This document shows, in pieces, positions 54,957 through 57,900 of a DNA stretch of 64,000 nucleotides (within the stretch, counting starts at the first letter, position 1; the number at the start of each line of letters is the position of its first letter). Under the pieces are notes generated by a model. That model worked only from the letters and a program-made list of their open reading frames with translations, did not search any database and was not told where the DNA came from. Origin of the DNA: Marchantia polymorpha subsp. ruderalis (taxonomy: Eukaryota; Streptophyta; Marchantiopsida; Marchantiales; Marchantiaceae). The stretch is taken from contig AP031351.1 in NCBI GenBank assembly GCA_037833965.1, positions 11,110,501 to 11,174,500 of the forward strand. The letters are read 5' to 3'. The position numbers and the translations under genes were made by a program.

Positions 54957-57900
54957 ATGGGATCCCTTGAGGAGGCGGGTTCGATGAATGGCGGTTCTGC
55001 AAACGTCGAAGGGAATGGTGCGTCTTTGCGCGAATCGAATGGTGATGGGGTCATCGGAGACACGCTCATGGAGGTCGAGGAAGAAGAGAAAGTGAAGCCA
55101 GGCCTAAAAGAGCCGAAAACCAATGGTCGCGTGATGGCTCCTCCATCAGCAACATTCTGTCAAGAGAATGGCAACGACAATAATTCCAAGAGAAGGAAGC
55201 CTCCTCTACCCCTCGAAGTTGGCACTCGCGTTCTGTGTCGCTGGAGGGATGACAAGTTGCATCCTGTCAAGGTCATTGAGCGGCGCAAGCTCACCAGCGG
55301 GCCGGACGACTATCAATATTACGTGCACTATACAGAGTGTGAGCATCCGAACACATGCTTCACTGGCCAGTGGCGGCCGCCATCTTTGTGTGAATCGTCA
55401 CTTATGTCGATTGGACTTCTGACCTTCTTTACGTGTGCATGATCTCAAATTGGTGGTACTTGTATGGTAGTTAACAGAAGGCTGGATGAATGGGTACGGC
55501 TGGATCAATTGGAGCTGGATTCAGTTGAGACAGACGCGGACGAAAAGGTGGAGGAGAAGGTACGAGGACACTAATGCAATGATTTTTAAGCGGCTCCGGT
55601 TGCTGTGATAGTTGATAGCCTGAGTGACGATGGCCACTGAGAGGATGTCTAGTTCGCCCTTTGTTATGTTTTTTCACGTGTCTTCACCTGGCTTAGGTGT
55701 TATTGGTATTTCGTCGTAGATCTATATCATAATTTTGCGAGATGGAATAATAGACACTAGCCCTACCCATCAGTTGAACAGCAAGGGAGAACCAACTTGC
55801 TGAGCCTCTGGTTAGTCAGTTAGAACCACTCAATTTTGATGGGACAATTATTGGATCACATACCGCCTGTGACCGAACCAACTGGTATTTTTTTTGTATT
55901 TACTTACCATCCTTATATAAGGCCTTAGGGGTGTCACACTCAGTTAAAGCCTTGCACCGGAGTTGCTCGTAAGTTCCTCAAAGATTATGAGAACTTAGTT
56001 GTGCTCAGGTAGTCTTATCAACACCATTGTGTCTGCATGCAGGCTGGTAACCTCAAGATGACTCGACATCAAAAGCGGAAGATCGACGAGACACATGTTG
56101 AAGAGGTCAGTCGGGTTGGATGCACCTTCCTGTTGTTTGCCCGTAGGTCTCGGTGCGTTCTTGAACGTAAAGATAGTTCTATCCTTTGTGTAGTGCTTCA
56201 AAATTTACATACTTACAACAAGAATTTGATCTGTCATTGAGCGTGCTTTGCTGGAAGGGCTTTTTGTGGGTTAAGTCTGCATTTACTTATCGAATATTTT
56301 TTTTCATGAAGGATCATATGAGTGCCCGAGTATCTGGTGTTGCATTAAAGTACCTTTCTTGTGGACTCTGTCAAAGCCTATTTTGTTCACTATTAGATGG
56401 GTCAGTAGTCAAAAGAGCATTATCCGAACCCAGTGATGATTTATGTTCTGCAATGCTGAGAACATCTCCATGAGGAAAGCTCAACACACTACAAGATCTG
56501 AGGGTAATATTGAAGGACTTGTCTCTCTCCTTTATTCACTATGGCTTTTTCTCAGTGGAAAAAGTTCAAGAACAGTTGATATATTGTTTACGTCTGAGTG
56601 AAGGAAGTTCACCGGTCGCCGGTTTGATTTATAACTTAAGTTCTTGGTTAGGTGCAATGACCTGGACGAGCTCCCTGTGATGAATAACGTTCTGCAATGC
56701 GGAGGTTATCACCTTGACGATATCTCAACACACATAATTCTGACGGGATTGCCTTCCATCTGTTTACAGTGACTCCAAAAGAAACATCTTCGTTTGTACA
56801 CATTCTTCGTGTCCGCCTGTAGTGGATCTGTATCTACCTAGTTCAAACCATAAGTATCTTTTCACATTACATGAATGCCCAATGATGATTCTTATTCTGC
56901 AATGCTGAGGATATTACTATGAGGATATCTTAACACACAACTTTTCTGATGGGCATAACATTTGGAACTTGTTGAAAATTCAGAGTGTTTCACTGCTGGA
57001 CGGTTTATGTTTTTCCTGCACTTGGTTCTGAAACATCTGTGTTGGAAGTGTTAATCATAGATAGTCTATCTTGTTCGCTTATGTTGAAGCTGTCGAAGGA
57101 GCATTGTTTACATCTCTGCCTACGTTTGATGACGAATTTGACGTTGTTACTTGAATGCAGGGTCATGAGGATTTCGATGCTGCAAGTCTTCGGGAGCATG
57201 AAGAGTTTACTAAGGTGAAAAACATAAGCAAAATTGAGCTTGGACGGTACGAGATAGATACGTGGTATTTCTCTCCGTTCCCGCCGGAATACAGCGACTG
57301 CAACAAGCTTTTTTTTTGCGAATTCTGTTTGTCCTTCATGAAACGAAAGGAGCAGCTGGGACGACACATGGTGAGACCATTTTATAGTTGAAGTGGAATA
57401 TATTACTGTCATCTGCGTCGTTGCGTGTGGAAGTGTTCTTGATTGTTCGACCTTTTCCATTTGATCGTCTTTTATCCAACTCGTTCCTTTCTTTTCTCCC
57501 GCAGAGAAAGTGTGACTTGAAGCATCCGCCCGGGGACGAGATATACCGGAATGGATCTTTGTCTATGTTCGAGGTACGCTACTGGATACTTACTGACCTG
57601 CTACGAATCTGTCAACACATAGCGTTGCTCCTAAGATTGTGGTTGTTGAGCCATGACCTACCTCTCTGCTCTAGTACGAGGCATTCGCTGTTTGTTAGTG
57701 GATGATTAATATGGCTTGGGTCCTTTGTTATAAGATAAAATTATGTTCTGATCTGCAATTGCTTGGATAGGAGTCAGTCTTGCTGATGTGGGATCCGACG
57801 TGTCCCTCTCTCTCGTTTCTGGTGATAGGTGGATGGCAAGAAGAACAAGATTTATGGACAAAATTTGTGTTATCTTGCCAAGCTGTTTTTGGATCATAAG

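Follow-up and report, generated by a model that had tools for sequence, protein, structure and literature searches.

In a 64,000-nt stretch of the genome of the liverwort Marchantia polymorpha subsp. ruderalis (C2:11110501-11174500, hereafter the window, from an assembly of 241.5 Mb in 9 contigs), three similar short units lie in one intron of a protein-coding gene, and the question is what these units are, what they would act upon and whether each of them is still at work. We consider it very probable that they are paralogous box C/D snoRNAs from intron 3 of a MYST acetyltransferase gene, and that their D' guide directs methylation of a G of 5.8S rRNA; a conserved block is proposed as an accessory strand. 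The anatomy, the host intron, the complementarity of the guide and the pattern of conservation are read directly from the DNA.

Host Gene and Anatomy of the Units

An initial annotation of this DNA named a MYST acetyltransferase as the host gene, which is borne out by nine exons that join in a single frame of 472 aa across GT..AG introns and by the Pfam domains of the protein (MOZ_SAS, 3.5e-87; zf-MYST, 3.3e-25; Tudor-knot, 1.7e-20). All three units lie inside intron 3, sense to the MYST gene:

54957..59015, + strand: host MYST acetyltransferase gene (exon joining in one frame, Pfam domains)
54957-55338, 55471-55559, 56043-56105, + strand: host gene exons 1-3
57161-57370, 57505-57573, 57829-57990, + strand: host gene exons 4-6
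58127-58220, 58412-58554, 58809-59015, + strand: host gene exons 7-9
56106..57160, + strand: host intron 3, 1055 nt, GTCAGT...ATGCAG
56428..56505, + strand: predicted C/D snoRNA copy a, 78 nt, with boxes, guide and 4-bp terminal stem ACCC/GGGT
Parts of copy a, + strand: C 56433-56439, D' guide 56446-56454, D' 56456-56459 (CTGA), C' 56470-56476, conserved block 56480-56489, D 56498-56501
56672..56748, + strand: predicted C/D snoRNA copy b, 77 nt, with boxes, guide and 4-bp terminal stem TCCC/GGGA
Parts of copy b, + strand: C 56677-56683, D' guide 56690-56698, D' 56700-56703 (CGGA), C' 56714-56720 (TTGACGA), conserved block 56724-56733, D 56740-56743
56877..56954, + strand: predicted C/D snoRNA copy c, 78 nt, extending over 56875-56956 when all 7 bp of the stem are counted
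Parts of copy c, + strand: C 56882-56888, D' guide 56895-56903, D' 56905-56908 (CTGA), C' 56919-56925, conserved block 56929-56938, D 56946-56949

A second locus resembling the host gene is found about 0.87 Mb away (C2:10295984-10298018), with 54-74% identity in 4 of 9 matches. Elsewhere in the window there are two copies of a 120-bp tandem unit that match at 98% (51434-51675) and a TC dinucleotide repeated 56 times without interruption (3703-3814).

By anatomy, the three predicted RNAs are box C/D snoRNAs. Each has a box C (RTGATGA; GTGATGA in a and b, ATGATGA in c) and a box D (CTGA in all three) near its ends, next to terminal stems of 4 bp in a, 4 bp in b and 7 bp in c, and the 4 bp that the copies share are paired in 12 of 12 cells. 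These box letters, together with start-to-start distances of 244 (a to b) and 205 (b to c) that place the units in register, agree with the earlier description of three spaced C/D units in one intron, and the terminal stems, perfect over 7 bp in c, agree with it as well. The inner boxes D' and C' read CTGA and ATGAGGA in a and c, and CGGA and TTGACGA in b; the two k-turn pairs tested in the C'/D' motif are standard in all three units, although the letters of copy b are non-canonical. The earlier count of two copies with canonical inner boxes applies to D', in a and c, but the CGGA of b is matched by a change in its C' box. The proposed local triplication stands.

The Guide and Its Predicted 5.8S rRNA Target

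The D' guide TTCTGCAAT, which had been described as the same in all copies, is identical in a, b and c. Each guide can pair over 10 nt with the 5.8S rRNA of this genome, including a single G-U pair in copies a and b, and the nucleotide five positions from D' faces the target G. All three therefore show the pairing expected of a C/D guide, at least 9 bp long and with the base to be modified opposite the fifth position from D/D'; none of 60 shuffles of each guide does as well on this 5.8S. The stretch TATCTAGTGTGAATTGCAGAATTCC is common to the best 5.8S match (L002) and to L003 and L004, both above the Rfam cut-off, of which L003 is interrupted by N and L004 is cut short; L002 and L004 seem to be copies that are isolated or have decayed. 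The D+5 assignment made in the initial annotation to a 5.8S G holds against these copies. We take the target G (in AATTG) to be Arabidopsis G79 and human Gm75, by counting from assumed 5.8S 5' ends. On C1 the rDNA consists largely of N; 5S and 5.8S matches occur there on the same strand, 1.7 kb apart (L012, G000:C1:38000-47900), and are perhaps linked rDNA, a linkage that would fit a bryophyte.

The pattern TGATGA-N2..10-TTCTGCAAT-NNNGA has 4 matches in the 241.5-Mb assembly, about 0.5 being expected from base composition, and 3 of the 4 are in this intron. The fourth (L010) was rejected because just 2 nt separate its box C from the guide and the 96 nt downstream contain no CTGA. Of the 15 genome matches to TTCTGCAATNCTGA, two are copies a and c. 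The remaining 13 were set aside as guides: RTGATGA is absent from the 130 nt upstream of every one, and three (L022, L024 and L025) have only the looser RTGANGA. A wider D' pattern matches a, c, L052 and L053, the last two being repeat-like copies that were discarded with no CTGA downstream. With the guide placed at D, we dismissed both L055, which is the same place as L052, and L054, where the D+5 base would be U and no stem is present. Exact-pattern searches miss guides changed inside the guide core, and the other matches that they return for the 5.8S site look like chance or repeats.

Searching the window generically for C/D units (RTGATGA, CTGA, a stem of 4 bp or more) yields 5 rows on the + strand. 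They derive from 4 C boxes, one in each unit plus a further one at 40010; the - strand has none. In 40 Markov-simulated sequences the same search averages 0.6 per strand and never exceeds 4, so that by itself it is not decisive. The arrangement at 40010-40071 (+), with GTGATGA, two possible CTGA boxes and a 5-bp stem in a short span of 56-62 nt, is probably due to chance given the simulated mean. Within the window, a covariance model built from a, b and c matches those three only.

Relation to Known snoRNA Families

Rfam at gathering scores returns no match in the window, and such a match is no requirement for the C/D class. The best Rfam row aligns SNORD11B to copy c with 34.4 bits against a cut-off of 50; we reject this identity, since the guide stretch of SNORD11B is gapped against the guide of copy c and the match looks like shared C/D features. 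The covariance-model check against SNORD96 that the initial annotation had proposed gave no match, this family being absent from the 28 Rfam rows for the region at E up to 10. Vertebrate SNORD96 presumably targets the same 5.8S nucleotide (Gm75 in human numbering), but its guide lies upstream of D and not of D' as in the units described here.

A functional counterpart is found in Arabidopsis, where, in the excerpted text of PMC8053127, 5.8S G79 is assigned to SnoR39BY, its methylation falls in a hid1 mutant, and SnoR39BYa also guides 25S-G814 and belongs to the polycistronic HID1 cluster. Units a, b and c are predicted to target the same 5.8S nucleotide, whereas they have no such second guide and are hosted in the intron of a protein gene: the longest complement to the L030 25S stretch is 5 nt in each. 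The plant guide snoR39BY named in the initial annotation is therefore matched in its 5.8S-G79 guide and not in its 25S-G814 guide. As the latter is absent, we do not file the units as SnoR39BY; judged by guide targets, they are not clear snoR39BY orthologues. That the L030 stretch contains the G814 site is our assumption from yeast numbering. A search for a separate 25S-G814 guide gave 8 genome matches, none convincing; the near-identical L044 and L045 have ATGATGT 73 nt upstream, but no terminal stem was seen and they were rejected.

Chlamydomonas reportedly has intronic snoRNA clusters, to judge from the title of a paper. Green algal and plant intronic clusters resemble host intron 3 in holding several snoRNAs per intron; they differ from it in that here three paralogues share one guide and the host is a MYST acetyltransferase. 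According to an excerpt of PMC5122169, polycistronic snoRNA precursors are standard in plants and intronic snoRNAs are few. A literature search by titles and abstract openings found no MYST-hosted snoRNA of this kind, which is thin evidence of absence; none was found in passages of PMC12218528 either, and among the matches listed no liverwort snoRNA study was found by title.

A Conserved Block Upstream of Box D

The claim that the D-side guides differ is correct for the 6-8 nt adjoining box D, but the 10-nt block upstream of them, CTYAACACAC, is invariant across a, b and c in 9 of 10 columns. Its distance to the D' guide is exactly 30 nt in all three copies, and its distance to box D is 8 (a), 6 (b) or 7 nt (c). 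The CACAC of the block can pair with GUGUG in 5.8S, one nucleotide 5' of the primary duplex, over 7 bp in a (CACACUA with UAGUGUG) and 5 bp each in b and c. Shuffling gives p values of 0.015, 0.25 and 0.23 for a, b and c, respectively (0.040, 0.70 and 0.76 with G-U allowed), which are not significant for b and c. Block-only shuffling reaches 5 bp in 20% of trials, and 2.3% of 15-nt windows in the L035 rDNA would pair as well as the accessory site. Conservation and register thus speak for an accessory pairing, and the strength of the pairing, weak overall, does so in copy a only. For Arabidopsis, PMC8053127 gives additional pairing of 7-15 bp at 45 of 104 assigned sites; over half of these pairings are immediately adjacent, and the median distance within the snoRNA is 30 nt. 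Copy a, with 7 bp, 1 nt away in the rRNA and 30 nt in the snoRNA, is within these ranges, whereas the 5 bp of b and c are below the 7 bp given there.

Alternative Explanations

It could be argued that activity as a guide is limited to one or two of the copies, c and perhaps a, and that the rest are decaying duplicates, a reading that we find doubtful. It would account for the inner boxes of copy b, for stems of 4 bp in a and b against 7 bp in c, and for an Rfam E-value below 0.1 in c only. However, box C, box D and the entire guide are kept in all copies while the spacers diverged, and the inner boxes of copy b appear compensated rather than merely decayed, because its changes in D' and C' face each other in the k-turn (3b, 3n) and replace the G-U pair of a and c with C-G, restoring a standard pair. 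Both Watson-Crick and G-U pairs at 3b.3n fold poorly in metal ions alone (PMC4382518), so copy b would stay, with the G-U copies, in the k-turn class that needs protein to fold; Arabidopsis guides beside degenerate D' boxes also exist (PMC8053127, excerpts). An outer stem pair likewise reads A-U, U-A and G-C across the copies. Over seven tested pairs, two are changed on both sides and 21 of 21 cells are paired, which 28 of 500 shuffles reach, and the covariation of the terminal stem alone is matched by 86 of 500; with three sequences this signal is modest.

The D side might instead be a true second guide, its block aimed at another RNA, and the conservation of that block and the canonical D boxes are what one would then expect. 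We hold this to be unlikely: a search for a D+5 target in nine rRNA targets, namely the own 5.8S and, standing in for the own 18S and 25S, eight incomplete rDNA contigs of other eukaryotes (one from IMG/VR and seven from GTDB), gave a lowest shuffle p of 0.17 in 27 copy-by-target comparisons, the U2 and U6 of this genome gave nothing (p at least 0.30), and the distance of the block is constant to the D' guide but not to box D. The seven GTDB contigs (L031-L037) are filed as bacterial genomes and look like contamination, since they carry the eukaryotic 5.8S motif. Insertion of processed RNA could also leave three similar units without flank homology, so that the units might be what is left of a mobile element or some other repeat whose resemblance to snoRNAs is accidental. 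This we regard as highly improbable, given that guide and box C coincide in this intron for three of the four assembly matches, that conserved boxes, guide and stems with compensatory changes are what C/D function predicts, and that a DNA search with the whole 571-bp region returned nothing except itself.

Proposed Mechanism and Implications

We therefore return to paralogous C/D snoRNAs with a 5.8S guide, for whose processing, expression, methylation and accessory pairing we infer the following course. The three snoRNAs would derive from intron 3 of the MYST acetyltransferase pre-mRNA once that intron has been excised or cleaved, and core C/D proteins would assemble on each RNA at C/D and C'/D'. 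The D' guide would then direct 2'-O-methylation of the conserved 5.8S G (AATTG; G79 in Arabidopsis numbering), and the C'-to-D half probably guides no second site. The CTYAACACAC block is proposed as an accessory strand that would pair, best of all in copy a, with the GUGUG lying directly 5' of the primary duplex.

More speculatively, and with the odds against it, the 5.8S-G79 guide here may be a dedicated single-target RNA whose guide and accessory strands clasp adjoining parts of 5.8S, in three co-transcribed MYST-intron copies and separate from the 25S-G814 function. If so, 5.8S methylation would be tied to the expression of a chromatin regulator, and the 5.8S function would stand apart from 25S-G814, which Arabidopsis joins to it in one RNA. 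The general mechanism of C/D guides is already well known, and the locus is a new example of a familiar kind of gene. It offers a concrete and testable guide locus for a conserved 5.8S methylation in a liverwort, and its three copies, with one guide and differences elsewhere, form a natural experiment in which the spacers show the freely changing parts and copy b an apparently compensated inner k-turn. If confirmed, the accessory block would be a further case of two-strand recognition of 5.8S.
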